NCBI GenBank assembly: GCA_947561395.2
Contig: OX387191.1
Span: 37,279,439-37,343,438 of the forward strand
Direction: 5' to 3'
Source of the DNA: Buxus sempervirens
Lineage: Eukaryota > Streptophyta > Magnoliopsida > Buxales > Buxaceae
DNA length: 64,000 nucleotides
Shown in pieces: positions 21,105 to 62,174 of the stretch (position 1 is its first letter; the number at the start of each line of letters is the position of its first letter). Both the position numbers and the translations under genes were made by a program. The notes beneath the pieces are model-generated. The model had not been told where the DNA came from. It saw only the letters and a program-made list of their open reading frames with translations, and ran no database searches.

Positions 21105-21212
21105 AATGGTCCTAACCTTAGATTAACCAGCTTTAGGGGAATGGGACTATGAGTACGCTAGATAGAACCCCTATAATTATTGGATTCTAACAAGTGAATT
21201 TGTATTTTGCAG

Positions 21213-26621: not shown

Positions 26622-26663
26622 ATTTCATTCTTAGGTCATGTTATCTTAGGAGAGGGTATATCT

Positions 26664-28870: not shown

Positions 28871-28882
28871 AGGAGGGGAGGA
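28871..28882 (+). promoter_or_regulatory. Polypurine tract of Gypsy2
   Basis: AGGAGGGGAGGA runs directly into the 3' LTR start TGTAAAACCCC. Before it lies the AATTTCGAGGACGAAAATTT block found before the PPT in Tekay-type elements. Confidence 0.9.
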
Positions 28883-31565: not shown

Positions 31566-32418
31566 TGTAACGCCCCGGATCCAAGTTACGTAGATAAAAC
31601 CGTAACTTATCTCCAAAGGTTATTATATAACCCAGGATAGCAAATCAGAGTGAAGAAAAAACATGAATTAAACAATAACTATAAAATCAGAGTGCACTAT
31701 AACCCAAGCTCCAATATAAAATACCATAACCGAGGCTAACCCACATTAATCAAACCTATACCCGCTGGTGCCGTCCTTACCAGAATCTGAAAACAAAACA
31801 AAACGGAAAGGAATGAGATACGAATATCCCAGTAAGCAGTACATGCATGCTCAAATATAGTTCATCAGTTCTAAAATATGATACAGTTGTAAATCATGCA
31901 ACAGTAGTGATAACACCTCAATTCCGAATAATCCGAGTAATTCAACAGTAATCCAATCAATCAGTATGAGATACAAGAATAATCTAGTTCAACAAACATA
32001 TATGTAACATCAAATCAACAGTCGATAAGTCACCGCAAGACTCACGAAATAAGACTGCCTTTAACTAGTGTACGACCATGCTCACTATGCCACCTCCCGG
32101 CTTATGAGCGAAGCCGAGCTACACGGTCATCGACTTATTGCGGGAGAACCCATTCAGATATAGTAATGGGTTGGCATGTACTATCCCAAACATAGCCGCA
32201 GCCAACCAGATACAAAGAAGGCCTCATCGAGATACACGATGGAACGCGTACGTGGACAAGGTATTACGACTAGCAAAAGAACAATCCTTCCCACTGTCTA
32301 GCTCCTAACATGGATCCATATCGGGCTATGCCCACTAGACTCTAAAACCAAAACCAACAGTGAAAATCCAATAAGCACAACTCATCTCAATCTCAATCAT
32401 ATCATCCCGAGCTACACG
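31566..32418 (-). repeat. X left palindrome, outer arm, part 1 (reverse U5 end)
   Basis: It starts TGTAACGCCCCGG, the reverse complement of the LTR end at 52648. It continues as a nearly exact reverse complement of about 51800-52648 and is broken at 32418 by Gyp3 (TSD ACACG). No gene is seen. Confidence 0.92.
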
Positions 32419-34069
32419 TGTAAAACCCTGATATTTTCTAAGGATTTTTTTATTTATGTGGGCGAATAAGCTTAAGTAAATGCGGGTATATGTAGGGATT
32501 TCAGTGGGCGAGCATGCACGGGATCAATGAGTTTCAAAGGGTGTCGAGCGGAAATACTTAGGGAAGCGTATGAAGGTATATGTATATACTAAAAAGGAAA
32601 ATTAGGTCTTTGGTTTTAAAATACTCGCATGAATACTTTTGGCAATACTTTTGTTAACTTAAGAACTTGGGCGATTTGGCGATTGGCGGCTACTGTGGCG
32701 ATTAGGGTTTCGCTAGGAAGAGACGAGAACCGCTAGAGCTACGACTGGATTAGTGGAGTCGGAGATCCAGATTTCAGTGGGTTTTTCCTCTCGCAAACAG
32801 GGGATCAGTTCGGCTACCTTCGCATCCACGCGCGCAGTCGGAGTCGGCGATCGGCAGTGGTTGTGGAATAAGGCTGTTATTCTGGGATAAGCGTATAGGA
32901 GTGAGTAGCATTGATTTACAACTGAGGTTTTAGTTTATTCGTGATGGTATTCTGATTTCATGGTTGTATTCTGTATTCTGAGTTTTGTATTCTGAGTTTT
33001 CTGGGTTTTCTGGAATATCATGAGTCCGAGCATGAGAGTGAATTACAACTTGAAATAAAATGTGTTTAGATTAAATCCAAAACTAGTTGGGAAGTGTTCT
33101 GGGCATATTAGGAGACAATTGGAACAATTACAGATCGAAAAAGATCGGCCAGAGATGGAGATCTCGAAATAACAGAGAGTCGAAAATCGCAGTGAGTATC
33201 CGCCGACTTAGCGCTCACTTGTGCTCACTTAGGAAGTAGGCGCCTTTTAATTTCACTACCCACCGAGCTGGCGCTCAGCTCGCGCTCACTTAAAAGCATG
33301 CGCAAATCTTGCGCGAAGCTGGCGCCGACCTTGCGCCCACTTCCCGCCCATCTCGCGCTCACTTAATATCGAGTGAGCGCATAGTCAAATTTTACCTAAT
33401 TCCTATCTGCCGACGGGTGCTCACCTGGCGCTCACTTCAGGAGGTGAGCGCATAGTGCAATACACTTACCGAATTGGAATTTTGACTAAACCAAGGGGTT
33501 TTTGATGACTTGAGGGTTAAACCACTTAACTATTCACTTGTTTGGGGACTTTGGAACCTACTTTGCCTATGCAATTATTAGAGGAAAATTTAGTGAAATT
33601 CTTAAAAGCTTCCAAGGTTGAGTTTAGGTTATTTGTAAGTGTTGTGCCGGATACCAAAACACTAGGAGTTCCTAGTTAGTTTCCCTCTATTTTATACACT
33701 GTTTTGATTGAGAAATTATTAAATTGTGGTTTCACTTGTTTGGATAATTCTGAATGTATTGTAAAGATTTTCTTGGTATGAATAATTGAGTTTTATTTCC
33801 AAATGGCATGTGTTACGGAAATGAGAAAATATGGAAAGTACTTGAGGTACTGGTTGGTCCAGAGGGACAGGTGATGAACTGTGATGAGTTATACACGATG
33901 TGGAATGAATGGTTTTATTTTGATGTTGGAATTGAGATTATACGATGATTTACTGTTTTGGTTTAGCTTGTCGTGGATCAAGAGTCTAAGCTTAGTAATG
34001 TGATGCTTTTGTTTTATTGGAGTAATGGCATGGCCATGGAGTGTTGCCACGACCGGTGTAGAGCATCCA

Positions 34070-34183
34070 AAAACCATGAGTAGGCCTGGTTGTCAATGTC
34101 GAAACCCTGAGTAGGCCGGCATTGGATGACGAAACCCTGAGTAGGCCGTCATTTCAGAGTATCCGAAACCTTGAGTAGGCCGG
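34070..34183 (+). repeat. Four GAGTAGGCC repeats in Gyp3 5' LTR
   Basis: Four copies of AACC(C/A)TGAGTAGGCC lie 30-40 bp apart, as in the solo LTR at 19976 and the 3' LTR at 49390. Confidence 0.8.
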
Positions 34184-34307
34184 AACTGTGTACATGGAGG
34201 TGTGGAGGTCGCTCTGGCATGTTGATTAACCAATGTAAACAACTACATGACATTGACCACTGTGGGGATTTGTTTTTGTTTGACGTGATATGTTTTATTC
34301 GCTGGTT

Positions 34308-34505
34308 TATTGGTGCGGAGTAGCCCATGATAAAATACTCTATTGGTGCGGAGTAGCCCATGATAAATTACTCTATTGGTGATGAGTAGCCCATGATTAA
34401 ATACTCTATTGGTGCGGAGTAGCCCATGATTAAATACTCTATTGGTGCGGAGTTGCCCATGATAAAATACTCTATTGGTGCGGAGTGGCCCATGATAAAC
34501 ACTCT
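34308..34505 (+). repeat. 33-bp tandem repeat, six units (Gyp3 5' LTR)
   Basis: Six near-identical 33-bp units contain TATTGGTGCGGAGTAGCCCA. The 3' LTR has five units. Confidence 0.95.
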
Positions 34506-35013
34506 AGTATTTCAAAAACCTGAGTTGTTGAACTATGTTCTCTTCAATATGTTGCTACCTGGTTATACGTGACTTTATGGCTATATGCATGATTGATATC
34601 GTCTTTACTGCTTGGTTTATACGATGGTTTTCCTCAAGGATGTAAATTGGATCGTTGAAGTTTTGTTGGGTTATACGTGTTATCATCGTTGTATATGGTT
34701 TGAAATCGTGGCATGTTTTAGAACTGAACTAGATGTATTTGTGCATGCATGTGCTGCTCACTGGGATATTCGTATCTCACCCCGTTGCTTTCGTTTTGTT
34801 TTCAGATACTCTTGGAGAGCTCGATACTTGCGGGTAGTTACTTGGACATGTGAGTTTTATTTTAGTTTGGGAATATTTTAGTGCACTCTGTTATATAGCT
34901 ATTGTTGTATTCATGTTTTTCCTTCACTCTGATATTGCGATCCTGTGTTTTAAATTAACCTCCGGGGATGAGTTACGTTGTTATTTCGTGACTCGGATCC
35001 GGGGCGTTACAGA

Positions 35014-35025
35014 TGGTATCAGAGC
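35014..35025 (+). promoter_or_regulatory. PBS, initiator tRNA-Met type (Gyp3)
   Basis: TGGTATCAGAGC lies two bases after the 5' LTR end. Confidence 0.95.
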
Positions 35026-35435
35026 AATATTAGAGTTATAAAAGGAAACATGATGTAGGATTAAGGAAATTCTAGGATGACTTTGGGGGTTGGTGTGTTC
35101 GCTAGGTAGAAATCCAAGGAGTAGGAAGAATAGGTTGAGAGTATTCCTTCTATAGATCTGTTTTATTTATGGCTGTTATTATGGTACGACTTGTACATAT
35201 ATAACCATACGGCATTAAGATGATTTACTGCATTAATGATGATTAAATTTGTAGAGTAAATTGCGACTAAAAGCAAAAGAACATTCACATCGAGACAGTA
35301 GGATAATTAAAGATAGACAGGAAGTGAACAAAAGACCATTAATATATACATATGAAATCTACGTACAAGGTTTGGAGTACAACCCAAAAATAGGACATAA
35401 AGATAAACTACAAAGACTCCAAGAAATAGGAAGTG
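35026..35435. other. Gyp3 leader, non-coding
   Basis: The first ~150 bp resemble the leader after the PBS of element X (AGGAAACATGATRTAGGAT), so the two elements are related. The rest, up to the stop of the antisense gene, would be its 3' untranslated region. No other gene is seen. Confidence 0.55.
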
Positions 35436-36795
35436 TCAGCTAGAAGGACTTGCATCGTCCCCTCCATCACCCACACTCCCTCCCGCATCAACATCGCCAT
35501 CTCCAGCCTCTGCTGCACTAGCTCCATCTCCGTCCCCTCCAACTCCACCATCATCACCACCTCTAGGCTCCGTATCGCCAGAATCATCATCCGCAGCAGC
35601 CTCGAAACTGGACATGTCATCATCCAGGAAACACTGCAATAACTGGCGGTGTGTGGCATGCATAGACTGCACTTGTCCCTGCAGGGTTGACATAGTCCCT
35701 AGCATCTCCACCTGGGTCTGCTGTATCGCAGTCTGGGCACTCGACATCTCGCCCACGCTCCTCATCGTGTGGAGCACGTGATGGCCCAGTGCCCTCACCA
35801 CCTCCTGTAGAGTCCTCACCTCACCTGTCAGAGTAGTGACTAGAGTAGAAAGACCCTCAAATGTAGAGGGAGGAGGGTCCGAAGTAGGAGCTGGGGGAGC
35901 ACCAGAGGAGGATGGGAGGTCAGTGGAAGAGGGAAAATGAGAGGAAGACGCGAAGTCAGAAAATGAGGGAAAGGAAGAAGAAGAGGGAATGTCAGTAGAA
36001 GTGGGTAGAGCAGAAGCCGAGGGAGGATCTGGGAAGGAAGAAGTTGAAGGAACAGAGGGGCGGGGCACAGCAGTAGTGATCGCAGCCCTCCTACCACGGG
36101 AGATACCTGCAGTAGCTCTGCCAATAGGCTGACTAAGAGGTAAGATAGTAAAACTGGGATACACGGCTGGAGAAGCAGAAATGAGTCTAGATATCAAACA
36201 ACCGTAGGGTAAGGCAACTAGTCGCCTACGATCCTCATAAACCCCAAGCATGACGGAAATGATGAACGAAGGAAGGTCAATGGAATCTCCCCTCCGTATG
36301 GCGTAAAGGAGCAGGGCACGGAGCTGGGGAGAGAAGAAAGATGAGAAACAGGCCAGAGATCAGTAAAAACAATCCTCGACAGGATAGCAATGTCGGCAGA
36401 AAATCGTGAAGTATGGAGAAGAGCCACCCCAGTATACTCCGTCGGTCGGCCCATAAGAAATGTGGCGACGGCAGAATAATCGGGCATGGTCCCACTGGAG
36501 TAGGGATACACCGGGTGCTCCACCCTAAGGACCCGAAGGCTGGCAGCTAGGAACTCAGGAGAAACCTGAAACCGGGTACCTCAGATATGAACATAGAAGG
36601 AGGTACGATCAGGAGAGATATCATGGATATTACTATAAAACTCCCGAGCTAGCTCCTCACAAGTGGGAGTGAAGCCACTGAACACGGGTAACCAACCGCG
36701 GACTCGGAAAATATCCGCTATGGAAGAATCAAAGTCCTCAAACCTAACCTCTCTCTCTACTAGAACTGCACGACACTGCAAATACCTATCATATA
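35436..36795 (-). pseudogene. Gyp3 antisense gene, main part: putative plant transposon protein domain plus S/P-rich tail
   Basis: Read on the minus strand from 36795 this continues the frame that starts at ATG 46090 and is split by Athila. It resembles the 'putative plant transposon protein' domain: EREVRFEDFDSSIADIFRVR, AREFYSNI, then ILSRIVFTDLWPVSH and LPYGCLISRL. A TGA at 36578 stands where CGA is expected, and a one-base loss in a C run near 36325 shifts the frame. Downstream are a Ser/Pro-rich stretch, a likely coiled coil (LQEVVRALGHHVLHTMRSVG on to QSMHATHRQLLQ) and an acidic Gly/Asp-rich tail ending at 35436. Full length would be about 480 residues. Function unknown. Confidence 0.75.
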
Positions 36796-37590
36796 TGATA
36801 AGTCATGAAAATATCACATTATAGCACATTAAAATCATGACTTATCTAGTTTTATTTCATATTTAATTCCCAATTTTACTTAGAAATTGTCAAAGTCTTT
36901 CATCTTTGCATTTTATTTTCATTGTCTAAATTTTTCCTAATTTGTTGATGTAGAGATACTCTCGGTGATTATAGAAGTCACGGTTCAAACGGCGTAACAA
37001 TCGGAGTCAAATTGTAGAAGATATGACCAGCGTTCGCTGGCCGTTCGCCTGTCGTTCGAACGTTGGTGTTCTGCAGAGAAACCCGAGAGCAACGTTCGCT
37101 GGCCGTTCGCTTGTCGTTCGAACGTTGGTGATCTACAGAGAAACCCGAGAGCAGCGTGCGCTGAACGTTCGCCTGTCGTTCGAACGTTGGTGAAAAATAG
37201 AGAAATTGTGAGCAGCGTTCGCTGACCGTTCGATGAACGTTCGAATAAGAGAAGAGGAAACAATTTTTTTACCTGAACGTTCGACTCGCGTTCGATGAAC
37301 GTTCGAACGATCAAGTATTAAAACCTGTTATAAAATTCCGAACTTTGTGGATTTGTTTCCTTTTTCTTGGGGATCTTCTTCTAGTTTTTAGGAGGACTTA
37401 GAGAGGTTTCTAATTAAGAAGATTAGGTCGTTTTTGGACTTCAAAATCATGGGTATACAAGGAAAGGAAGTTCTCTTTTCCTTAGGAGTCTTGGAAGGAA
37501 AGTTTCTATTTTCTCTTCAAGGGATTTTTGGGCAAGTTTAGGTGATTGATATAAAGGAGAAAAGGAAAGTGAAGAGAAGGAAGTTTTTGG
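36796..37590 (+). repeat. Athila 5' LTR, truncated
   Basis: It starts TGATAAGTCATG and matches 44385-45179 of the 3' LTR. It then runs directly into the PBS at a shared AGTTTTTGG. The equivalent of 45180-45997 (818 bp) is missing. A TATA box (TATAAAGG, about 37551) remains about 35 bp before the PBS. Confidence 0.92.
37029..37312. repeat. ~63-bp tandem repeats rich in GTTCGAACGTT (Athila 5' LTR)
   Basis: Units start at about 37029, 37092, 37155 and 37216. Each carries CGTTCGCTG, one or more CGTTCG blocks and, in most, the palindrome CGTTCGAACG. The same array lies at 44618-44902. Confidence 0.88.
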
Positions 37591-37605
37591 CGCCGTTGCC
37601 GGGGA
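37588..37605 (+). promoter_or_regulatory. PBS, tRNA-Asp type (Athila)
   Basis: TGGCGCCGTTGCCGGGGA is complementary to the 3' end of plant tRNA-Asp, the usual Athila primer. Confidence 0.93.
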
Positions 37606-37676
37606 TTGATTTGTTTATTAATATTGATACTATCTATTCTCAGTTTTAATTTGGATTTTAATTTCAGGTCTTGTGT

Positions 37677-40600
37677 ATGCGACACTCTAGAAGTGCTGAA
37701 ATCTTTCCTTGTGATCCCGAAATTGATTGTACCTTTAGGCGGTTGAACAAGGAGAAGAGGCAAGTTTTGAATAACTCTCCAGTTGAAATGACAAATCAAA
37801 TTGAAGAAGAGGAGAACAATAGGGCTTTGAGAGACTATGCCATGCCATTAGTCACCGGGGCTCACACAAGCATTAGAAGGCCAGCAATACAAGCCAATAA
37901 TTTTGAGATAAAGCCAGCCATCATTCAAATGATCCAATCAACCGTGCAATTCAGTGGCATGCCGAATGATGATCCCAATGCTCATATTGCAAATTTTCTG
38001 GAAATTTGTGATACCTTCAAGCACAATGGAGTTTCTGATGATGCAATAAGGTTGAGGCTCTTTCCTTTCTCTTTAAGAGATAAGGCAAAAGGTTGGTTAA
38101 ATTCACTTCCACCAATGACCATCACTACGTGGGATGGTTTGGCTCAGAAATTTTTAGCAAAGTTCTTTCCTCCATCAAAAACTGTTAAGATGAGGAATGA
38201 TATCACTACCTTTGCTCAATTCGACATGGAGTCACTATATGAAGCATGGGAAAGATATAAAGACTTGCTTAGAAGATGTCCTCACCATGGTTTACCCAAT
38301 TGGTTGCAAGTCCAAACTTTCTATAATGGATTGAGTCCAAATACACGGACAATTGTGGATGCCACAGCAGGTGGAGCATTGATGGGGAAGCCTTATGAAG
38401 AAGCATACAATTTACTTGAGGAAATGGCCTCAAATAACTACCAATGGCCATCAAATCGTATGGGACCAAGAAGAATTCAGGGAGTTCATGAAATTGATGC
38501 TTTAAATTCTTTAACTTCTCAAGTTGCTTTGTTGACAAAGAAAGTAGATAATATTAATATGAATGCTGTTCAATCTACTCACTTTGTTTGTGAAATTTGT
38601 GTAGGGAATCATTCAAGTGTTGAATGTCAAGTTGGAAATTCTTTTGCCATGGGTGCATCCGACCAAGCCAATTATGTCTCCAACTTTCAACGCCCAAATA
38701 ATCCCTATTCAAATACTTACAACCCCGGATGGCGAAATCATCCAAATTTTTCTTGGAGTGGTCCTCAAAATTTCAATAAGCAACCTCCCGGGTTCCAACA
38801 GCAAGAAAAGAAGCCAAATATGGAGGAATTGCTTACCAAGTTCATGCAAGACACTTCAGGATTCATGCAAGAAGCAAGGACTACTTTCCGGAACCAAGAT
38901 GCTAGCATCCGGAACCTTGAGCACCAGATGGGGCAGTTTTCAAAGCAATTGGCAGAAAGATCTCAAGGGTCTCTCCCAAGTGATACTATCACCAATCCAA
39001 GAGAACATGCTAAAGCCATCACCCTAAGGAGTGGGAAAAATCTGGAAATTCGGAAAGAAGTAAGAAAAGAAGATGAAGAAGAGGACAAAGAGAAGCACCA
39101 AGAAAATACAAAAACAGATTTGCTTTCTAAAACTCCTCCTCCTTATGTTCCTCCTATTCCTTTTCCACAAAGATTGAGAAAAAATAAGTTGGACAAGCAA
39201 TTTTCTAAGTTTCTAGATATTTTTAAGAAATTGCATATTAACATCCCTTTTGCAGATGCATTGGAGCAAATGCCAACTTATGCCAAGTTCATGAAGGAGA
39301 TGTTGTCTAACAAGAGAAAATGGGAGGAGCATGAAACGGTGATGCTAACCGAGGAATGTACAGCAATCTTGCAAAATAAACTTCCACAAAAGCTAAAAGA
39401 TCCAGGGAGTTTTACTATTCCTTGCACAATTGGAAATTCTCATTTCAATAAAGCTTTATGTGATTTAGGAGCAAGTATAAATCTAATGCCTTATTCTGTT
39501 TTCCAGAAATTGGGGATTGGTGAAGCTAAGGCAACAACCGTATCTCTCCAACTGGCGGATCGATCAATCAAATACCCAAGAGGTATCATAGAAGATGTTC
39601 TTTTTAAGGTTGACAAGTTTATTTTTCCTGCAGATTTCATCGTATTGGACATGGAGGAGGACAGAGAAATTCCACTCATCCTAGGCCGACCATTCTTAGC
39701 TACGGGAAGAACTCTTATTGATGTCCAACAAGGGAAGCTTATACTTAGAGTGCAAGAGGAACAGATTGTGTTTGATGTGTTCGAAGCCATGAAGCATCCC
39801 TCCACAAGTGATTCATGTTTTCAGATTGATACCATCAGCAAGTTGGTATCAGATACCTTCAATGAAAATAATCCAAGGGAACCACTAGAAGCATGCATTA
39901 CAAAATTAGGGAGTATTTCTTCTAAAGACATGAGCATTAGAGAGTGTGCACTCTATTTAGAGGCTTCACCACATTACACTCACAAGAAGAAGCTAAATTT
40001 TGAAGATCTTCATAAGAAAGAAGATCCCCCAAGAAATTTACTGACTTCTGATCCTCCCAAGCTTGAGCTTAAAACTCTACCTTCTCATTTAAAATATGTT
40101 TATTTAGGAGTTGAAAATTCTTTTCCAGTAATTGTCTCTTCCTCTTTGACAGGTCTTGAAGAAGAGAAACTACTTCGGGTGTTAAGAGCTCACAAATCAG
40201 CATTGGGTTGGTCAATAGCAGATATCAAAGGAATTAGTGCTTCAATTTGCATGCACAAAATCCTTATGGAGGAGAACCACAAGACCACGGTACAACCACA
40301 AAGAAGGCTCAATCCAAACATGCAAGAAGTGGTAAGGTCTGAGGTTCTCAAGTTGCTGGACACAAGTATCATCTATCCAATTTCTGATAGTTCATGGGTA
40401 AGTCCAGTTCAAGTAGTGCCAAAGAAAGGAGGTATTACAATTGTTAGGAATGAAACCAATGAACTTATTCCAACAAGAACAGTAGCAGGTTGGAGGGTGT
40501 GCATAGATTATAGGAAACTCAATGATGCCACTCGAAAAGACCACTTCCCACTCCCTTTTATTGATCAAATGTTGGAAAGGCTTGCTAGTCATGCTTATTA

Positions 40601-41852
40601 CTGTTTTCTTGATGGATACTCAGGGTACAACCAAATCCAAATTGCACCAGAAGATCAAGAGAAGACTACTTTCACTTGCCCTTATGGAACATTTGCCTAT
40701 AGGAGGATGCCTTTTGGTTTGTGCAATGCTCCAGCCACTTTTCAGCGATGCATGATGGCAATATTTTCTGACATGGTGGAAAAGTTTCTGGAAATTTTCA
40801 TGGATGATTTCTCTGTTTTTGGTTTCTCTTTTGATGCTTGTTTGAATCATTTATCTATGGTATTGACAACATGTGAAGAAACTAACCTTGTTTTAAATTG
40901 GGAAAAATGCCACTTCATGGTGCAGGAAGGAATAGTGCTTGGTCATAGGATCGAAGTGGATAAGGCCAAGGTGGAGGTTATTGAAAAATTACCTCCACCC
41001 ACAACAGTCAAGGGTGTACGGAGTTTTCTTGGGCATGCGGGTTTTTATTGTCGTTTTATTAAAGATTTTTCTAAAATCACTAAACCCCTTTGTAGCTTAT
41101 TGGTCAAGGATACACCTTTTATTTTTTCAAAAGACTGTTTGCATGCTTTTGAACTTTTGAAGAAAAAACTGATTTCAGCCCCAATAATTTGTGCTCCAGA
41201 TTGGGAGCTACCTTTGGAGTTGATGTGTGATGCTAGTGACTATGCTTTAGGAGCTGTTTTAGGACAGCGGAAAAATAAATTATTGCATGTCATTTACTAT
41301 GCTAGTAGGACCTTGAATGATGCTCAACTCAATTATGCTACAACTGAAAAAGAACTATTGGCTGTAGTTTTTGCCTTTGATAAATTTAGATCTTATTTGA
41401 TTGGCTCCAAGGTTATTGTATATACTGACCATTCAGCTCTCAAATATTTGCTAGCCAAAAAGGAAGCAAAACCAAGGCTATTTCGGTGGATTCTACTTTT
41501 GCAAGAGTTCAACTTGGACATCAAAGACAAGAAGGGAACCGAGAACCAAGTAGCTGATCATCTTTCTCGACTTGAGCTTGAAGATGAAACAGCCACCACA
41601 TCCATCCCAATCAATGAGGGATTTCCAGATGAACAACTTCTTGCCTTTTCATTGATAGAAGTTCCCTGGTATGCAGATTTTGTGAATTACTTGGTTAGCA
41701 ATGTGGTAAATCCGGAGTTCTCATATCAACAAAAGAAGAAATTCTTTTCGGATGTAAAGCATTACTTTTGGACGATCCCTTCCTCTACAAGCATTGCAAA
41801 GATCAAATCATTAGGAGATGTGTACCTGAAGAAGAGATGGAGAATATTTTAA
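37677..41852 (+). CDS. gag-pol: Athila gag-pol frame: capsid, protease, RT, RNase H, start of integrase
   Basis: The first ATG is 37677, just after an acceptor-like TTTCAG (37662-37667); about 1391 residues are open. Gag (to about residue 500) has [18 protein letters not shown], a [15 protein letters not shown] block and a short Cys/His knuckle ([13 protein letters not shown]), then [10 protein letters not shown]. The protease motif CDLGASIN lies near 39460. RT spans about 40290-40960 with FMDDFSVFG (about 40799), the catalytic Asp pair intact. RNase H has [27 protein letters not shown] and [11 protein letters not shown]. The frame leaves integrase near 41771, where one base is missing, and ends at an artificial stop. 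Confidence 0.93.
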
Positions 41853-44369: not shown

Positions 44370-44384
44370 GTAAGTTGGGGGGTG
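44370..44384 (+). promoter_or_regulatory. Polypurine tract of Athila
   Basis: TAAGTTGGGGGGTG runs straight into the 3' LTR start TGATAAGTC. Confidence 0.85.
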
Positions 44385-45997
44385 TGATAAGTCATGAAAA
44401 TATCACATTATAGCACATTAAAATCATGACTTATCTAGTTTTATTTCATATTTAATTCCCAATTTTACTTAGAAATTGTCAAAGTCTTTCATCTTTGCAT
44501 TTTATTTTCATTGTCTAAATTTTGCCTAATTTGTTAATGTAGAGATACTCTTGGTGATTATAGAAGTCACGGTTCAAACGGCGTAACAATCGGAGTCAAA
44601 TTGTAGAAGATATGACCAGCGTTCACTGGCCGTTCGCCTGTCGTTCGAACATTGGTGTTCTGCAGAGAAACCCGAGAGCAGCGTTCGCTGGCCGTTCGCT
44701 TGTCGTTCGAACGTTGGTGATCTACAGAGAAACCCGAGAGCAGCGTGCGCTGAACGTTCGCCTGTCGTTCGAACGTGGGTGAAAAATAGAGAAATTGTGA
44801 GCTGCGTTCGCTGACCGTTCGATGAACATTCAAACAAGAGAAGAGGAAACAATTTTTTTACCTGAACGTTCGACCCGCGTTCGATGAACGTTCGAACAAT
44901 CAAGTATTAAAACCTGTTATAAAATTCCGAACTTTGTGGATTTGTTTCCTTTTTCTTGGGGATCTTCTTCTAGTTTTTAGGAGGACTTAGAGAGGTTTCT
45001 AATTAAGAAGATTAGGTCGTTTTTGGACTTCAAAATCATGGGTATACAAGGAAAGGAAGTTCTCTTTTCCTTAGGAGTCTTGGAAGGAAAGTTTCTATTT
45101 TCTCTTCAAGGGATTTTTGGGCAAGTTTAGGTGATTGATATAAAGGAGAAAAGGAACGTGAAGAGAAGGAAGTTTTTGGTGCTGGGAACGTGAGAAGGAA
45201 GCTGGAACATCAAGAGATCAGAGCTTGGATCATAATTAGTTTATTTCTTCTCTTTTGTTCTTCTTCTTTCATTATACTCTGTTTTGATGGTTATTCTTAG
45301 TTCAGTCATGAACTAATTTCTCTTTCTAAGGCTTTGATGTAATCTGAACATGATGTTTTAATTCTGAATACTATTGCTAAAGGATTTATGATTCATTCTT
45401 TGAGTATTTTATTATTGTGATTAACCCAATTGAGTACTTGATCACCATTCAATTGTATATGGTAGTTGTATTGAGACCGAGAGGAGATATACAATTTTAG
45501 TTCCTGTGATAAAATACCATATTCTACATGTTGATAGAGATATTGGCATGGTTTATGTAGCTTTGTGTTTTTGGACATGAAACTCCACAGATCTTAATGT
45601 ACCTTGTTACTTTTAAATTCACATAGAGATATCATGAGTTATCGTGGGAAGGTAAGTTCGTTGGTGCTCTAGAGAGACCATTGGATAGAATAGGGATTTT
45701 CGCTTTCAAATTGGATTATAAAATTCATTAGCATGTGTATTCAAGAGTTAATTCAGATTTGTTTATGATGAAATCAAATGCCTTAGTATTTTAAATCTCT
45801 TACTAAATCTTACTCTAATATTTTCTTAGTTAATAATTTTAATTGCTAGTTAAAAACCCATCTCACTTTTTGATTATCCAAATAGAATTTAGGATAGTAA
45901 TTTCAGTATTTAGTAGCTACCATTCCCTGTGGGTTCGACACTATTTCATCACTTTATTACTTGTTACGAATTCATGCACTTGCGAAAAAGTACATCA
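44385..45997 (+). repeat. Athila 3' LTR (1613 bp)
   Basis: It runs from TGATAAGTCATG to GTACATCA, followed by ATATA. The first 795 bp match the truncated 5' LTR with few differences. The phrase CCCTGTGGGTTCGACAC near the end is typical of Athila LTRs. Confidence 0.93.
44618..44902. repeat. ~63-bp tandem repeats (Athila 3' LTR)
   Basis: This is the partner of the array at 37029-37312, with the same unit order and a few base changes within the GTTCGAACG palindromes. Confidence 0.88.
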
Positions 45998-46002
45998 ATA
46001 TA

Positions 46003-46090
46003 TCTCCCTCTCCCTGTCTGAAAGAAACCTATTGTCTCTAGGCTCAACCCTAGCCCTCTTAGAGGGATTCCCGGAAGAGGTCCTAGTCAT
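46003..46090 (-). pseudogene. Gyp3 antisense gene, N-terminal piece
   Basis: ATG at 46090 on the minus strand (MTRTSSGNPSKRARVEP) opens 29 codons that reach the Athila insertion at 46002. The frame continues exactly at 36795 once the duplicated ATATA is counted once. The start is preceded by an acceptor-like TTTCAAATCTTAG, suggesting a leader intron from about 46677 that ends exactly at the ATG. Confidence 0.7.
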
Positions 46091-46677
46091 CTAAGATTTG
46101 AAACCAAACGGATTGGAAGTAGAAAATAACAAGGACAATAGAAACCAGAATTAGTAAGCAATAACAGCTAAATTAATGCAGATAAAGGAAAATTTTCTTT
46201 TATATAACAATAGGTTGAAGCAGGTGAAAATAACAATTTAAAGATTCGGCAGCAAAACATAAGGATAAAAACAAGTGAGAAAAAATTTTTTTTTTTCAGG
46301 TTTACATGCCGAGTGAGAAAATGTGAGGTCATCAACAAAACCTTAATACAACTTAGAAGTATCTAGGAAATAAGAGAACACACAACATCAAAGAAAAAGT
46401 GAATAAATAAAACGGCTACTAGCGCTCAAAGGCCGCGCAAACCATACATTGTACAAATGGAAATTTGGGGTTTCCATGTTTCGTGCAGCCAATGCGGAGA
46501 AGAAAAAAAAGGGGGAAAGAAATTTTTTCTTTTCTTGAAAACGAAACCACGGATAAGTAAATGATCAAGTGAAAGGTCGGATTCGAACCCAGTTCAAGCG
46601 AAAAACCAAGTTTGGAGTTTGCCCTAACCGCATGAAAAGAAAACTTTTGAAAAGGTAAAACTCGGATGCGCGCATAC
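46091..46677 (-). other. Probable leader intron of the Gyp3 antisense gene
   Basis: On the minus strand a donor AAG|GTATGC (46677) and an acceptor ATCTTAG (46091) bracket 587 bp with no coding sequence. It mirrors the leader intron of aORF1. The assignment is by splice-site look only. Confidence 0.5.
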
Positions 46678-47030
46678 CTTGTCTTGACAAATCAATGGGG
46701 ATTTGAGCTAGCGCCGAGTAAAATCAAGTCTCCGCCGAGTGAACAGGGCTTGGCGGATGGGAAAAAAAAATGGCCGAGCGGGTGTGTCGAGAGGAAGAAA
46801 AGAGAAAAAGAAAAGGGTTTTGGGCGAGTGGGAGAAATGGGAGAGGGTTAAGGGTTTTTAAGGTTCGTTCTCTCAGGGAAAACCGGTGGGTTGGTTGGGC
46901 CGGTCGAGTGATTTTGAAAAGTGGGGTCTTAAACCCAGGACCTCGAAGGAAAATTTTTTTATGAGCGATTCTCTGATGATGCGATAGTTTTCCAGTAAAG
47001 TTAAGGTGCACAGAGTATGTGCTAGGCCTA
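46678..47030 (-). promoter_or_regulatory. Probable promoter and leader exon of the Gyp3 antisense gene
   Basis: On the minus strand it holds CGGCCCAACCC (a TGGGCC-type site), AAAACCCTTAACCCTCTCCC (close to telo-box motifs of plant promoters) and a C/T-rich leader (46740-46860), before the donor at 46677. These are common in promoters of plant genes with no relation to LTRs. The exact start site cannot be set. Confidence 0.45.
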
Positions 47031-47721
47031 AGCCACGGTTAGGTAAAGTTTTAAATTTTATTTATTTAACAACGTAAGGGATCTATAGGGGAGAAATTTG
47101 ATATGTTGTCTGATGTAACAATTAAAGTCTGTGTAAAGATTGTCTCTGAACTCTGTGAAACCTCCGGATCAAATTGTTAAAATAAAAGGTTGCTGATTCA
47201 TAAAATGGAAAATAATAATAATAATAATAATAGTAAGGTAAACTATACAATTGTATATTAAAGAATTGAGGATGAGTGAGATACTAAATTTATTGTTGTT
47301 GAATGATATCTGGTGTTTTTATTATTGCTAAATGCTATCCGATGATTGTTGAGCCATTTGAGTAGGCGACGTGTCAAGGTGTGGTGAAGCAGGGTACCAT
47401 GCGGAACTACACTGAGTGCGAAACATATGCAATTGGGATATGTATTAGTATAAATAAGAAAGTGTATAAATACATATGGCAGATGTTGTTATAAATATAT
47501 TCCAGTTAAAAGCTAGTAGAAATTGCAAATTTCTTGCTCAAAACTTGCATATAGGCGGACGCGTTTATATGGAAAGATTGAGAATGGAAGGTTTGCGGAT
47601 TTCTTCTACAGTATTTTAAGTTAAGAAATTTCGGCTTTTAAAAAAAAAAAAATCATGAAATGCAATTTTGATTGTGAAAGTTAGCATGGAGCAGTGTGTT
47701 AAATTTCGAGGACGAAATTTT
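47031..47721. other. Gyp3 3' internal sequence, no gene
   Basis: It is AT-rich with an (AAT)n microsatellite at 47211-47233. No coding sequence or pol remnant could be recognised. It ends in the AAATTTCGAGGACGAAATTT block at 47701. Confidence 0.5.
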
Positions 47722-47736
47722 TGTAGGGGGAAAGAA
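47722..47736 (+). promoter_or_regulatory. Polypurine tract of Gyp3
   Basis: TGTAGGGGGAAAGAA precedes the 3' LTR start TGTAAAACCCC. Confidence 0.85.
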
Positions 47737-50298
47737 TGTAAAACCCCGATATTTTCTAAGGATTTTTTTTATTTATGTGGGCGAATAAGCTTAAGTAGAT
47801 GCGGGTATATGTAGGGATTTCAATGGGCGAGCATGCACGGGATCAATGAGTTTCAAAGGGTGTCGAGCGCAAATACTTAGGGAAGCGTATGAAGGTATAT
47901 ATATATACTAAAAAGGAAAATTAGGTCTTTGGTTTTAAAATACTCGTATCAATACTTTTGGCAATACTTTTGTTAACTGAAGAACTTGGGCGATTTGGCG
48001 ATTGGCAGCTACTGTGGCGATTAGGGTTTCACTGGGAAGAGACGAGAACCACGAGAGCTACGACTGGATTAGTGGAGTCGGAGATCCAGATTTCAGTGGG
48101 TTTTTCCTCTCGCGAACAGGGGATCAGTTCGGCTACCTTCGCATCCACGCGCACAGTCGGAGTCGGCGATCGGCCGTGGTTGTGGAATAAGGCTGTTATT
48201 CTGGGATAAGCGTATAAGAGTGAGTAGCATTGATTTACAACTGAGGTTTTAGTTTATTCGTGATGGTATTCTGATTGCATGGTTGTATTCTGTATTCTGA
48301 GTTTTGTATTCTGAGTTTTCTGGGTTTTCTGGAATATCATGAGTCCGAGCATGAGAGTGAATTACAACTTGAAATAAAATGTGTTTAGATTAAATCCAAA
48401 ACTAGTTGGGAAGTGTTCTGGGCATATTAGGAGACTATTGGAACAATTACAGATCGAAAAAGATCGGCCAGAGATGGAGATCTCGAAATAACAGAGAGTC
48501 GAAAATCGCAGTGAGTATCCGCCGACTTGGCGCTCACTTGCGCTCACTTAGGAAGTAGGCGCCTTTTAATTTCACTACCCACCGAGCTGGCGCTCAGCTC
48601 GCGCTCACTTAAAAAGCATGCGCAAATCTTGCGCGAAGCTGGCGCTGACCTCGCGCCCACTTCCCGCCCATCTCGCGCTCACTTAATATCGAGTGAGCGC
48701 ATAGTCAAAATTTACCTAATTCCTATCCGCCGACGGGCGCTCACCTGGTGCTCACTTCAGGAGGTGAGCGCATAGTCCAATACACTTACCGAATTGGAAT
48801 TTTGACTAAACCAAGGGGTTTTTGATGACTTGAGGGTTAAACCACTTAACTATTCACTTGTTTGGGGACTTTGGAACCTACTTTGCCTATGCAATTATTA
48901 GAGGAAAATTTAGTGAAATTCTTAAAAGCTTCCAAGGTTGAGTTTAGGTTATTTGTAAGTGTTGTGCCGGATACCAAAACACTAGGAGTTCCTAGTTAGT
49001 TTCCCTCTATTTTATACACTATTTTGATTGAGAAATTATTAAATTGTGGTTTCACTTGTTTGGATAATTCTGAATGTATTGTAAAGATTTTCTTGGTATG
49101 AATAATTGAGTTTTATTTCCAAATGGCATGTGTTACGGAAATGAGAAAATATTGAAAGTACTTGAGGTACTGCTTGGTCCAGAGGGATAGGTGATGAACT
49201 GTGATGAGTTATACATGATGTGGAATGAATGGTTTTATTTTGATGTTGGAATTGAGATTATACGATGATTTACTGTTTTGGTTTAGCTTGTCGTGGATCA
49301 AGAGTCTAAGCTTAGTAATGTGATGCTTTTGTTTTATTGGAGTAATGGCATGGCCATGGAGTGTTGCCACGACCGGTGTAGAGCAGCCAAAAACCATGAG
49401 TAGGCCTGGTTGTCAATGTCGAAACCCTGAGTAGGCCGGCATTGGATGACGAAACCCTGAGTAGGCCGTCATTTCAGAGTATCCGAAACCCTGAGTAGGC
49501 CGGAACTGTGTACATGGAGGTGTGGAGGTCGCTCTGGCATGTTGATTAACCAATGTAAACAACTACATGACATTGACCACTGTGGGGATTTGTTTTTGTT
49601 TGACGTGATATGTTTTATTCGCTGGTTTATTGGTGCGGAGTAGCCCATGATAAAATACTCTATTGGTGCGGAGTAGCCCATGATAAATTACTCTATTGGT
49701 GCGGAGTAGCCCATGATTAAATACTCTATTGGTGCGGAGTAGCCCATGATAAAATACTCTATTGGTGCGGAGTGGCCCATGATAAACACTCTGGTATTTC
49801 AAAAACCTGAGTTGTTGAACTATGTTCTCTTCGATATGTTGCTACCTGGTTATACGTGACTTTACGGCTATATGCATGATTGATATCGTCTTTACTGCTT
49901 GGTTTATACGATGGTTTTCCTCACGGATGTAAATTGGATCGTTGAAGTTTTGTTGGGTTATACGTGTTATCATCGTTGTATATGGTTTGAAATCGTGGCA
50001 TGTTTTAGAATTGAACTAGATGTATTTGTGCATGCATGTGCTGCTCACTGGGATATTCGTATCTCACCCCGTTGCTTTCGTTTTGTTTTCAGATACTTTT
50101 GGAGAGCTCGATACTTGCGGGTAGTTACTTGGACATGTGAGTTTTATTTTAGTTTGGGAATATTTTAGCGCACTCTGTTATATAGCTATTGTTGTATTCA
50201 TGTTTTTCCTTCACTCTGATATTGCGATCCTGTGTTTTAGATTAACCTCCGGGGATGAGGTACGGTGTTATTTCGTGACTCGGATCTGGGGCGTTACA
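47737..50298 (+). repeat. Gyp3 3' LTR (2562 bp)
   Basis: It is the partner of 32419-35011, followed by the target duplication ACACG. The 33-bp repeat at 49628-49792 has five units instead of six; otherwise only scattered base changes are seen. Confidence 0.95.
49628..49792 (+). repeat. 33-bp tandem repeat, five units (Gyp3 3' LTR)
   Basis: The unit is the same as at 34308-34505; the one-unit difference explains most of the LTR length difference. Confidence 0.93.
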
Positions 50299-50303
50299 AC
50301 ACG

Positions 50304-51050
50304 GGGCATCCCCGAGATACACGGAGGTAACAACATCCCGAGATACACGGAGCATCTCCGAGATACACCGAGGAAAGATGACCATCAAAGAAATCCCAAA
50401 AACATCATTCCAGTACATGAAGAAAACCAAATAATCACATTTATCCAAAATAATTTGATTTCAAGTCCTTTTTCATAGTATTGCATAAAATTCCCTTTTA
50501 TAGTCAAAGTTTGGTGAAATTTCTCAATTTTCAGTTAAACCGGCAAATCCGAGTGTAGATACCAAAATTGAACTATGTTACTTAAATCTGTCTTGTATTA
50601 CTTGCTTAAATCCTAAACAGTAACTTACAAGTAGGATTTATACTCATATCACCTTTATTTTAGACTAAATCATCAATTTCTCTCTTAGTACCCTTATTTC
50701 ATCTAAAACCCCACATTGGTTTCCTTTACCAATTTAATACAACATACCATAGTTCATCACAAACCTTAGAACATATCCTTTTTAAGTTCATATGATTTAC
50801 ATCTTAACTAATTTTAATATAGTTCAGATTTGCATTACTTTACTTCCCTAACTCACAACTTCTTTACTTAAGAAATTATATTTTCAGTATTTAAATTTTC
50901 CAGATATGTTTCCATTTTAGTTCTTCATTTCATTTTATTCTCTAATGTGCTTCTAATAACCCAGATGTAATCTGAACTTTAAGCAACCTTTACAATGATC
51001 TTTACTTTGAGTTTTAATGCCCAAAACTTACTTATACCAAAATCTGAAAT
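50304..51050 (-). repeat. X left palindrome, outer arm, part 2
   Basis: It continues the reverse-oriented LTR after Gyp3 and is the reverse complement of about 51092-51800. It keeps one extra ~43-bp unit of a GTGTATCTCGGGATG-type repeat (50304-50375), which accounts for the difference in arm length. It ends at the loop. Confidence 0.92.
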
Positions 51051-51091
51051 GAATATAGAAAAGAAGGAAATAAGTTAAATAATCTTGGTGT
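51051..51091. other. 41-nt loop at the centre of the X left palindrome
   Basis: The arms abut it as ...CCAAAATCTGAAAT and ATTTCAGATTTTGG.... The loop is A-rich and unmatched on the other side. Confidence 0.9.
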
Positions 51092-52648
51092 ATTTCAGAT
51101 TTTGGTATAAGTAAGTTTTGGGCATTAAAACTCAAAGTAAAGATCATTGTAAAGGTTGCTTAAAGTTCAGATTACATCTGAGTTATTGGAAGCACATTAG
51201 AGAATAAAATGAAATGAAGAACTAAAATGGAAACATATTTGGAAAATTTAAATATTGAAAATATAATTTCTTAAGTAAAGAAGTGGTGAGTTAGGGAAGT
51301 AAAGTAATGCAAATCTGAATTATATTACAATTAGTTAAGATGTAAATCATATGAACTTCAAAAGGATATGTTCTAAGGTTTGTGATGAACTATGGTATGT
51401 TGTATTAAATTGGTAAAGGAAACCAATGTGGGGTTTTAGATGAAATAAGGGTACTAAGAGAGAAGTTGAGGATTTAGTCTAAAATAAAGGTGATATGAGT
51501 ATAGATCCTACTTGTAAGTTACTGTTTAGGATTTAAGCAATTAATACAGACAGATTTAAGTAACATAGTTAAATTTTGGTATCTACACTCGGATTTGCTG
51601 GTTTAACCGAAAATTGAGAAATTTCACCAAACTTTGACTATAAAGGGAATTTTATGCAATACTATGAAAATGGACTTGAAATCAAATTATTTTGGATAAA
51701 TGTGATTATTTGGTTTTCTTCATGTACTGGAATGATGTTTTTGGGATTTCTTTGAGGGTCATCTTTCCTCCGTGTATCTCAGAGATGCCCCGTGTAGCTC
51801 GGGATGATATGATTGAGATTGAGATTGAGATGAGTTGTGCTTATTGGATTTTCACTGTTGGTTTTGGTTTTAGAGTCTAGTGGGCATAGCTCGATATGGA
51901 TCCATGTTAGGAGCTAGACAGTGGGAAGGATTGTTCTTTGCTAGTCGTAATACCTTGTCCACGTACGTGTTCCATCGTGTATCTCGATGAGGCCTTCTCT
52001 GTATCTGGTTGGCTGTGGCTATGTTTGGGATAGTACATGCCAACCCATTACTGTATCTGAATGGGTTCTCCCGCAATAAGTCGATGACCGTGTAGCTCGG
52101 CTTCGCTCATAAGCCAGGAGGTGGCATAGTGAGCATGGTCTTACACTAGTTAAAGGCAGTCTTATTTCATGAGTCCTACGGTGATTTATCGACTGTTGAT
52201 TTGATGTTACATATATGTTTGTTGAACTAGATTATTCTTGTATCTCATACTGATTGATTGGATTACTGTTTAATTACTCGGATTATTCGGAACTGAGGTG
52301 TTATCGCTACTGTTGCATGATTTACAACTGTATTATATTTTAGAACTGATGAACTGTATTTGAGCATGCATGTGCTGCTTACTGGGATATTCGTATCTCA
52401 TTCATTTCCGTTTTGTTTTGTTTTCAGATTCTGGTAAGGACGGCACCAGCGGGTATAGGCTTGGTTAATGTGAGTTAGCCTCGGTTATGGTATTTTATAT
52501 TGGAGCTTGGGTTATAGTGCACTCTGATTTTATAATTATTGTTTAATTCATGTTTTTCCTTCACTTTGATTTGTTATCCTGGGTTATATAATAACCTTCG
52601 GAGATAAGTTACGGTTTTATCTATGTAACTTGGATCCGTGGCGTTACA
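51092..52648 (+). repeat. X left palindrome, inner arm (forward R-U5 part of LTR)
   Basis: It ends ATCCGTGGCGTTACA, directly followed by a PBS, so it is the 3' part of a 5' LTR. It matches the Gypsy1 LTR from about 5270 to 6107 in order (CTCGATATGGATCCAT, GTGTTCCATCGTGTA, GGGATATTCGTATCTCA). The first ~850 bp of a normal LTR are absent. Confidence 0.92.
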
Positions 52649-52650
52649 GA

Positions 52651-52662
52651 TGGTATCAGAGC
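52651..52662 (+). promoter_or_regulatory. PBS, initiator tRNA-Met type (element X)
   Basis: TGGTATCAGAGC lies two bases after the inner arm end. Confidence 0.95.
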
Positions 52663-55153
52663 ATATCAGAGTCATGAAAGGAAACATGATATAAGGATAG
52701 GAAACCGTAGGATTGCCTTGGGGGTTGTGTGCTCGCTAGATAGCACTCCATAAATAGGAAATATAGGATGAGAGTGATCCTTTCATTAATATTGTAGCAT
52801 TTATTATTATTAAAGATTAAGTTACTTGTTCCCTTACATTGTATTTATATGTGATAGTATGGATTGTTATTTATGATGTAGAGTATTAATATTAATTTTG
52901 CATGATTAGAGAAAAGTTATTGTAGTTTTATTTGGAAGATAATTTAAGATTCTGAGAAGTAGTTGATGTGGAGATAAACAGTAGGATGAAAATTTTGGAG
53001 ATGTGAGATAATCCCAATTATTATTGATAATAGTGGAAACATTAACTTGGTGATGGTTGATTAAGCATGCATGCTATTGTATGCTTAATTGAATGATGAA
53101 CTAGATGTATATAGCTATACTTAAGTAGTGTAAGGCATCGGCCAATGCTGAACATATATTTGGGTATTAAGCTTTATACAAATGGGGTATGTAATGAAAT
53201 ATTTATATATAAATCAGAAACTGTTTTGTGCTATATTGCTTAATTTAAGTTAGAAGGGGACTTACATGATTTCTTCCCTATCCTTCATATAGGTGCACAT
53301 ATATGAAAGGGTGGGTGATAGCAAGTCGTGATGTTCTCTTTTGGGTTATTTTATATTTTATTAATATGTATAAATCTTAAGAGTAAGAAATTGTGAGTGA
53401 TTAAATTTATGAGGAGTATTAAGGATGGATTGGTGATTTGGAAAATTAATGAAGGTGCGGTGGAAGCGTAGTGGATTTAAAGAACCAAGGATGAGATATC
53501 TATCATGAGAAGAACTTCCTCTGTCAGGATTTGGAATTGGCGAATATGAGGTCCACATTTAAATATTGGAAGAAATTACTTTTAGGAAATAAAGTTTGAA
53601 GTATACTTTAATAATAAGAATTTGAGAGGCATATTATCACAAGAAGAACATAATGAGAGATTTATAGAGAATTTCTTTCGGATCGTAGCGTGCTATCAAT
53701 TCTAACATGGAGGGCTGGGAAATATTAAGTGGTGATAGATGTGAGAATTACATCTAGGAATTGAAGTTACAATTCTCTATAGCTTGAGTTTTGGTTATGC
53801 TTTTGGTAGTGAGGATTTCTACAATTGATGAAATGCCTTTCAAGTTGGTTCGGCTATGTGAACAATTACAATAGGGAAGAGTGGGTACCTTCTGTTCCTT
53901 CAGAAGGGAATTATTCCATTTATGATCTAGATTAGTTCTCTGAAATAAACTCAACTAGTTAAACTTCTGAAAAAGGTGGCGGCCGAATTGGATCTTGCAT
54001 GCTAGAAGTGTGCTCTGCGAATTGAGAGTTTTGAATGTTCTAAATTGTTTCCTTCCGGGTAAGAATTAGTTTTGATTAGGATCTAATTTGTTTAATTCTA
54101 GCATTAATCAAAGAGAAATTCAGATCTGCAGAGATCTGATCTAGAAGTTAAATTTCTGTAGTAAGGTCTAGTGTGATCAGATCTAGAAATGGGCATGGGT
54201 GATCTTCATTTGATGATTTAAGAAGTTTATTAGCTCAAAATTTCTTCGAAGATGTAAATGATACTTTTGTTTCCAGTTTAGAATGATTAAATTGTGGTGT
54301 AGAATTGTATGAGCACATAAACAGATTTTCCTCTATTTTGGTTGGTCATGGGCGCCTACGCATGTGCAGTAGCAAAAATTTGATTTCATTAAAATCAGAG
54401 GTGTGTTTGTCGATTTATTTGCTGATTTCAGGTGTGCTAGAATTGAAATGGTGAAAAGAAAACTATATTAGTTCATTCATAATCTGAAATTACATCTGTT
54501 TTATTAAAATTTTGGGTGAGGAAGATATATGGTGTGGTATTGCGTTTCAATTAAATCCAACTTAATACCAAAACATCCTTTAGATGATGAGAACCAATAT
54601 GGAAAAGGTCTAGAATCTAAACAGCAGATTAGTCCTAGAAGTTTTGTATCAGCCACACTTCACTTTTGTGAATAATGATATGCTGAATTAGGATTATAAA
54701 TGGAATCGGTGAATGTAAAGTCAGGTTATGCATAATCATGGTGTAAGGAAATTTCAGAGGTTAGGATATTGAAGTTTCTTTTGGTGGGAAAATTGATTAT
54801 AGCATGGGTTATGTGGAGCCTGATTTGAGTTAATATAATTGGGAAGAGATAAATATTAGATTCAGATTTAGGCATACCAAAGAGTTAGTGAAAAGAAGGG
54901 ATGGGACTACTATAGACTTAGAGTGCAAGGATGAGTTATTGAGGTTTGGGATAGGATCAGTGTGCAAAGATCTACGGGATGTTATACGAGAAGAAAACTG
55001 TTTCAAATGAATATAAGCAAGTGTTTTGGAAGAGAGACAACTAGATGAAGGAAACCTATTTGGAATTGGTTGTTACATCATGAAGTGAAAACCTGTAGGT
55101 GATAGCATGATGTGAAATTTCGTGGATGAAATTTTTTTTAAAGGAGGAGAGTA
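52663..55153 (+). other. Decayed internal region of element X
   Basis: No intact ORF is present. One stretch (about 54856-54960) resembles Gypsy1 at 10045-10140, before the integrase zinc domain (AGGCATACCAAAGAGTTA against AGGCACACCAAGGAGTTA), so this is a remnant of a Tekay pol. The rest is AT-rich and unrecognised. It ends GTGAAATTTCGTGGATGAAA and a PPT (AAAGGAGGAGAGTA, 55140-55153). Confidence 0.6.
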
Positions 55154-55438
55154 TGTAAAATCCAAGATTTTAATGAAATTAAAATCTGTTATTTTAGTAA
55201 TTAATTAATTAAGGCTAAATTGAAAAAGTATGCAGAATCGGAGATCGAGAGGGTTTGTTTGAGGTTTCGTGTAAATCAATTTGGAAAACTCTATTTATTA
55301 AGGTGAGGAAAATTGGTTTACACGGAACCTTGAACGAACCTTCTCGATCTCCGATTCTGCATACTTTTTCAATTTAGCCTTAATTAATTAATTACTAAAA
55401 TAACAGATTTTAATTTCATTAAAATCTGGGATTTTATA
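55154..55438. repeat. X right palindrome: first 129 bp of LTR, loop, same reversed
   Basis: Arm 55154-55282 starts TGTAAAATCC, as LTRs of this family do. Arm 55310-55438 is its reverse complement, ending GGATTTTATA. The 100 bp nearest the ends match almost fully; the 30 bp nearest the loop hold several C/T differences. The loop is about 27 nt. The last bases read TATA where TACA is expected, a C-to-T change, beside AAGGT where GAGGT is expected. Confidence 0.92.
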
Positions 55439-55443
55439 AAGGT

Positions 55444-57108: not shown

Positions 57109-57220
57109 AAGCAATTGGCCTCAGGATTTGCATCATTTTTACGAGTTTTTGAGTTTATAAAACCCCCTTTTCACCTCTTTCCTCCTCCCATTGATTCTTA
57201 GCAAGCTTCAATCATCCCTA

Positions 57221-62037: not shown

Positions 62038-62174
62038 AGGTGGATTCAGTAAATACTCATTTATTCAAAAGCTTGTTGGCAATCCTCATTCCAGACCGTC
62101 GGGTTATCTTTTCTTAGAAGCTTGAAAATTGGTTCACAGATAGCAGTGAGTTGTGCTATGAACTGGCTTATGTA

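Follow-up and report, generated by a model that had tools for sequence, protein, structure and literature searches.

How can a retrotransposon come to lie in a chromosome with folded-back pieces of its own long terminal repeats (LTRs) at both ends? The question is raised by a stretch of 64,000 nucleotides of Buxus sempervirens DNA (assembly GCA_947561395.2, contig OX387191.1, positions 37,279,439 to 37,343,438), referred to here as the window, in which a preliminary description made from the letters alone had pointed to such an element. The palindromic insertion, here called element A, is confirmed as real. It is unusual, its mechanism is readable and it has been seen once. The explanation that we consider fairly probable is that nascent minus and plus strong-stop DNAs snapped back and were copied to their primer-defined ends, and that these ends were then used by integrase.

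Two palindromes within one insertion

Once a nested element, B, is set aside, positions 31566-55438 form a single LTR-retrotransposon insertion with palindromes at both ends, as is seen from self-comparison, sequence reading and arm alignments. After removal of B and one copy of its duplication, arithmetic gives A a length of 5988 bp. Its parts follow in the order of an inverted portion of the unique 5' region (U5; 1.6 kb), a 41-nt loop, the U5 portion, the primer binding site (PBS), a decayed interior of 2.5 kb, the polypurine tract (PPT), a portion of the unique 3' region (U3), a second loop and the inverted U3 portion (Table 1). The preliminary description had the left palindrome, loop and forward arm running up to the LTR/PBS border, which all three approaches bear out, as they do its right palindrome (PPT, 129-bp arm, loop, reversed arm). 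Its statement that both palindromes are bounded by natural LTR termini also stands, the ends being at the U5/PBS and PPT/U3 borders, and self-comparison places the two palindromes at the ends of one insertion.

The left arms show 48 mismatches in 1549 aligned columns and five gap events, a count that omits about 46 bp beside the B insertion, a tandem-repeat indel, and the right arms differ at 8 of 129 positions. With matches of such length, chance is of no concern. A small tandem-repeat expansion (50304-50349; 20-bp unit, array 50299-50368) lies next to the insertion point of B and is missing from the forward arm. The outer termini of A are TGTAACGCC and TTTTATA, where ACA is expected at the right. 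The spacer dinucleotides GA (after U5) and TA (before U3) are missing at these outer ends, as is expected if integrase trimmed them.

That the arms are opposite ends of one LTR follows from element E in the same window, a single LTR that holds both sequences: its first bases match the U3 arm of A and its last ~900 bp the U5 arm. A related copy elsewhere in the genome, L042, has an LTR of 3969 bp containing both arms, together with a PBS and a related interior. Three stretches in the interior of A correspond to parts of the pol region of E, the order of two being exchanged, and the first 977 bp of this interior are 83% identical to L042; its pol traces are decayed and its longest frame has 80 amino acids (aa). 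We take A to be a Ty3/gypsy element of the Tekay/Del chromovirus type, and its PBS to be of the tRNA-Met type. The PBS directly after the U5 end and the PPT directly before U3 are Ty3/gypsy features, while in place of two direct LTRs there are partial LTR ends as palindromes. A shares with Tekay/Del-type chromoviruses the PBS, PPT, LTR termini, 5-bp duplication, LTR sequence kinship and pol traces, and is unlike them in its palindromic ends and lack of coding capacity. In the window, the relative D has an RVT_1 match above the curated cut-offs, with rve and Chromo below them, whereas A itself retains only the decayed traces of pol.

The insertion site and its host sequence

The flanks of A, GAGGT and AAGGT, agree at four of five bases, and agreement at four or more would occur by chance in about 1.6% of cases. 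The flanking sequence is itself a repeat in the 676.5-Mb assembly of 247 contigs to which the window belongs. From 970 first-look candidates, 40 were scored and all matched (A included), and for 10 of the remaining 39 the sequence surrounding the site was fetched. All ten are uninterrupted at the insertion point of A and fit one insertion with a 5-bp target duplication. The empty sites read GAGGTT in eight, GAGGTG in one (L051) and AAGGTT in one (L055). The flanks and the rejoined host frame of the preliminary description are upheld. A carries the hallmarks of an integrase-type insertion, namely TG...CA-type ends and a 5-bp duplication, though with ATA in place of ACA at the right end and with four of five duplicated bases matching. 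Both departures, ACA to ATA and GAGGT to AAGGT, would be explicable as deamination of two cytosines in one CAG, a plant methylation site.

In the sequence itself the frame of the host is taken up again across A, and the host copy that carries A lacks 12 nt shortly after the site relative to its paralogs. In a protein search with the host exon, none of the 5219 candidates passed. Element D, flanked on both sides by GATAT, interrupts an open reading frame (ORF) resembling a plant mobile domain (match below the Pfam cut-off), which apparently resumes at about 31528 and 55439.

Turn-back points in related copies

The turn-back points can be located by comparison with copies in which the same LTR sequence lacks the fold-back. 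A search with the left loop (query 51020-51140) gave 44 candidates, of which 40 were scored; these included 39 other places, 30 of which were fetched and aligned. The matches start at query 21-27 in 26 of the 39, at or just before a short repeat, and at 35-40, inside the loop, in the other 13, and then extend into the forward arm. None of the 39 places has the fold-back junction, and no match extends back into the copied arm. The repeat CTGAAAT is exact before the loop in 13 of the 30 aligned copies, facing ATTTCAG or a variant 3' of the loop, and has one or two changes in the remaining 17. Upstream of it, the inverted arm of A is found in none of the 30; most of them share another sequence there, from which L021 and L031-L034 differ as well.

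With the right loop (query 55230-55360), 53 candidates were obtained and 40 scored, again with 39 other places, five of which were read together with L032-L034. All 39 matches span the U3 arm and the loop, ending at query 81-92, where the short repeat occupies 81-85, and the fold-back junction occurs at none of them. The closest copies, L056-L058, part from A after GAGGAAAATT, and the right repeat there is AATTT/AAATT. Since related copies part from A at the short repeats beside the loops, the turn in both palindromes lies at a natural inverted repeat that is short, of at least 7 nt at the left (about 7-10 nt) and about 5 nt at the right. The 3969-bp LTR of L042 contains 11 inverted repeats with stems of 7 bp or more and loops of 15-60 nt.

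Both loops have the same orientation in related copies as on the top strand of A, a point on which the LTRs in the window alone gave no clear signal. The copied parts therefore extend from 31566 to about 51043 and over about 55315-55438; a minus-strand 3' end received the left copy and a plus-strand 3' end the right one. The strand that folded is hence the minus strand at the left and the plus strand at the right, which amends the preliminary description. Its suggestion to look for further copies with such ends yielded none with the junction of A among the 39 other places at each loop. These searches address that junction only; fold-backs elsewhere in the LTR were looked for within the fetched stretches L001-L040, where the scan returned A itself, the nested arrangement of L033 and, in six copies, self-complementary stretches that are short (64-145 bp in all), namely in L006, L013, L020, L029, L038 and L040. 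A pattern scan of viral contigs gave no matches.

Two further inverted arrangements were met in the family. The 774-bp inverted repeat of L033/L041 reads as an ordinary nested insertion in reverse orientation. In L039/L040 (G000:C9:21087908-21088645 and 21096505-21097242), inverted LTR pieces of 738 bp, 99.5% identical, lie about 8 kb apart, surrounded by further matching pieces in mixed orientation; this is possibly another rearranged or recent nested pair.

How far had the presumed strong-stop DNAs been extended?

In 22 of the 30 copies a TATA box with at most three mismatches to GGCAACTATAAATA is found 1.2-2.2 kb before the left repeat; where the LTR start is seen, this box is about 300 bp into the LTR. 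The right turn-back is ~160 nt into U3. As the box is far upstream of the left turn-back and the right one is near the start of U3, the strong-stop DNAs were probably incomplete, that is nascent, when they folded. TATAAAT also occurs close to the left repeat, no more than 45 nt before it, in 21 of 30 copies, which may be coincidence. The idea that the left turn-back is the exact RNA start, based on TATAAA 28-30 nt upstream of CTGAAAT in eight of the first ten copies, was not upheld, the better TATA box being far upstream.

A proposed route

The source would be a non-autonomous Ty3/gypsy (Tekay-like) LTR retrotransposon undergoing abnormal reverse transcription. The minus strong-stop, whose 5' end the tRNA fixes at the U5/PBS border, would have halted about 1.6 kb out, folded on the ~7-10-nt inverted repeat and copied itself to its own 5' end. 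The plus strong-stop, with a 5' end set by the PPT, would have halted ~160 nt out, folded on the 5-nt repeat and been copied likewise. Each hairpin would then be a duplex with a correct 3' CA attachment (att) end, U5 at the left and U3 at the right, the same pairing as in normal integration. The hairpins would be joined to the internal strands, and integrase would process the 3' ends and insert the molecule, duplicating 5 bp of the target. The hairpins could then be opened and copied by host gap repair, in which the hairpin strand is copied from the target 3' end up to the internal strand, or else by replication. We infer the fold-back copying by reverse transcriptase, the order of the steps, the joining and the hairpin opening from the structure of the integrated product.

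The strong-stop origin is argued for by the points at which copying stopped. The U5/PBS and PPT/U3 borders are the 5' ends of strong-stop DNAs, and a continuous strand would have run on past them. A shows nothing of the LTR interval that separates the turn-backs, which is expected if neither nascent strand reached that far. Had a folded strong-stop gone on to copy its tRNA and make the usual second-strand transfer, the left loop would be expected in reverse, which it is not. The loop sizes of 41 and 27 nt suit an intramolecular turn. The snap-back and self-priming of the preliminary description thus keep the support of the primer-defined ends and the short inverted repeats, with the amendment that the strong-stops were probably incomplete. 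Its claim that integrase accepted the inverted ends has the integrase-type ends and the target duplication behind it, though it had left unweighed the rival of a rearrangement after integration.

Several observations pull the other way. Neither turn-back falls at the probable start of the RNA, and the term 'strong-stop' has to be taken as nascent and incomplete. The target duplication is imperfect, though both odd bases would come from deamination and the empty site L055 itself reads AAGGT. The right repeat, at just 5 nt, has a length that is common by chance; the left one is exact in fewer than half of the aligned relatives, and A has not kept its own ancestral order of bases before the left loop. 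The opening of the hairpins is a hypothetical step. The outer termini of A equal those of a normal reverse-oriented LTR element. The fold-back structure is, moreover, a single copy known from assembled sequence alone.

Weighing other explanations

The most serious competitor to folding, which we regard as possible but a good deal less likely, is strand switching. Here the nascent strong-stops would have jumped, via the same inverted repeats, onto the opposite strand of another complementary DNA (cDNA) and been extended in the opposite sense, giving a linear duplex with both 5' ends primer-defined. The final duplex, the inverted repeats and the loop orientation would be identical, and neither ligation nor hairpin opening would be required; it does, however, call for a second cDNA at the right place, and an intramolecular turn is the more natural source of offsets as short as 41 and 27 nt. 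No stem base tells folding and strand switching apart, and with an identical product the two cannot be distinguished here. The right arms carry 2 mismatches in the 97 outer pairs against 6 in the 32 loop-proximal ones (Fisher p 0.003). These six are all G-T and are, by comparison with related copies, most simply one A-to-G change and five C-to-T changes on the top strand, three of the five at CpG. The G-T pairs had suggested that the right turn-back carried a natural wobble stem of 32 bp, an idea that was rejected since none of the eight related copies examined at this point (L032-L034, L056-L060) has one. G55316, which as a base retained from a natural stem would favour folding over strand switching, is G in L032-L034 but not in the closest copies.

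Rather improbable, and somewhat more so than strand switching, is that a normal element integrated in reverse orientation, after which its interior was inverted and the middle of both LTRs deleted. The outer termini and the target duplication would be those of such an element, and a reverse-oriented nested insertion does exist in the family of A (L041). Yet this needs an inversion and, on each side, the deletion of one and the same interval from the middle of the LTR, and both junctions would have to be nearly symmetric (41 and 27 nt in a ~4-kb LTR), with a joint chance of about 3 in 10,000 by rough arithmetic. The left junction, moreover, falls on a kind of repeat that is rare in the LTR of L042, while the 5-nt right repeat weighs little. 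Fold-back reads are a known artefact of long-read sequencing, but an artefact of this type or of assembly is very hard to reconcile with arms that differ at 48 of 1549 columns, with a 17.9-kb nested element in only one of them and with a duplication that matches the empty sites. Equally improbable is a separate class of elements with constant palindromic ends, DIRS-like or foldback-like. Inverted LTRs do occur in DIRS-1 (PMC5633606); against such a class stand the 39 other places at each loop that lack the junction of A, the full 5' LTR, PBS and related interior of L042 (read on its 5' LTR side) and a 5-bp duplication that fits integrase.

Age and neighbouring elements

The divergence is 3.1% for the left arms of A, 1.84% for the LTRs of B (47/2560) and 1.76% for the repeats of C (14/795). 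The order A, B, C is required by the nesting; A against B gives a Fisher p of 0.010, though C is barely distinguishable from B.

Table 1. Coordinates of element A and of elements compared with it or nested in it (positions in the window)
Feature	Position	Strand	Evidence
Target site duplication of A, left copy, GAGGT	31561..31565		Paralog empty sites
Left inverted arm, outer part; start TGTAACGCC = reverse complement of U5 end	31566..32418	-	Self-comparison, arm alignment
Left inverted arm, inner self-copied part; ends in short inverted repeat CTGAAAT (51044-51050)	50304..51050	-	Arm alignment, related copies
Left loop, 41 nt; orientation as in related LTRs	51051..51091	+	Arm alignment, related copies
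Forward arm, LTR 3' part to U5/PBS border; ends GGCGTTACA	51092..52648	+	Sequence reading, alignment
Primer binding site TGGTATCAGAGC	52651..52662	+	Sequence reading; dinucleotide GA between arm and PBS
Decayed interior, no long ORF	52663..55140	+	ORF list, comparison with element E and L042
Polypurine tract AAGGAGGAGAG, limits approximate, then TA	55141..55151	+	Sequence reading
Forward U3 arm, 129 bp; starts TG at 55154, TGTAAAATCC	55154..55282	+	Arm alignment
Right loop, 27 nt; orientation as in related LTRs	55283..55309	+	Arm alignment, related copies
Inverted U3 arm; first 5 nt (AAATT) natural, remainder self-copied; end ATA, expected ACA	55310..55438	-	Arm alignment, closest copies
Target site duplication of A, right copy, AAGGT	55439..55443		Paralog empty sites
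Intact related LTR of element E, with U3 start and U5 end like those of A	3652..6107	+	Sequence comparison
Nested LTR element B, LTRs 32419-35011 and 47737-50298, ACACG on both sides; in left arm of A, younger than A	32419..50298	+	Self-comparison, alignment
Element C within B	about 36796-45179		Profile matches (Pfam)

The window holds what we take to be chromovirus-, Tat- and Athila-like elements together with a plant mobile domain, and is plant-like. Element C, presumably Athila-like, has a 1396-aa open frame (37662-41852) with a gag domain in its first 613 residues, and its 795-bp repeats are 1.8% different. B carries an antisense ORF of 307 aa (35436-36359, minus strand) with a weak Transposase_32 match below the curated cut-off. 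The LTRs of element D (16408-30833) have 3 differences in 580 bp (29878-30457 / 17713-18292) against 37 in the adjoining 759 bp (Fisher p 8e-7), which suggests gene conversion between the LTRs or with another copy. A solo LTR (18294-20708), flanked by TCTTA, lies within the 5' LTR of D. Polyprotein frames, assumed to be Tat-like, occupy 60427-63605 (minus strand), and opposite-strand ORFs, including a DUF7745 match, are present at 57161-58850 (plus strand).

Relation to known systems

Self-primed minus strong-stop DNA of human immunodeficiency virus type 1 (HIV-1) was reportedly described by Guo et al. in 1997 (cited in PMC10893463). Tyrosine-recombinase retrotransposons are not known to make a target duplication, and fold-back inverted duplications are known to arise from short inverted repeats at broken DNA ends. 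A resembles the latter in its turn-backs at short inverted repeats with short loops, and is unlike them in that its limits are primer-defined LTR termini with a target duplication on either side. With the HIV-1 product A would share a strong-stop DNA that folds and is copied back, and its fold-back is bounded by the strong-stop 5' end. In HIV-1 this DNA is described as a dead-end product, blocked by nucleocapsid (PMC10893463), whereas in A both strong-stops seem to have folded and the product is genomic, with a target duplication. DIRS-1 has inverted LTRs (PMC5633606). A is like DIRS-1 and other tyrosine-recombinase retrotransposons in the inverted LTR sequences at its two ends, and is distinguished by its target duplication, the lack of a recombinase ORF (judged by frame length) and a junction seen once.

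The preliminary description knew of no LTR class of this form. Inverted LTRs as such are known from DIRS-1. Older subscription papers on aberrant retroviral DNA could describe related cDNA forms. Among the open-licence papers listed, judged mostly by title and the start of the abstract, none describes an integrated palindromic strong-stop product, and passages searched in PMC5445492, PMC3185662, PMC12789967 and PMC12220202 contain no description of one.

What the insertion would mean

If the proposed route is true, A preserves the HIV-1 type of snap-back failure as a fossil at either end of a single molecule, where the positions of the turns can be read almost to the nucleotide. Integrase would then require just correct duplex att ends and not ordinary LTRs. 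A search pattern is gained as well: reverse U5, loop, U5, PBS ... PPT, U3, loop, reverse U3, all inside a single duplication. With it one could count how often this happens in any given plant genome. Palindromes that have been integrated might in addition give rise to hairpin RNA. We would suggest only tentatively that strong-stop self-priming is not always a dead end; hairpin strong-stops may be legitimate integrase substrates, giving LTR retroelements an occasional second route into the genome that would leave short elements with palindromic U5 and U3 ends.

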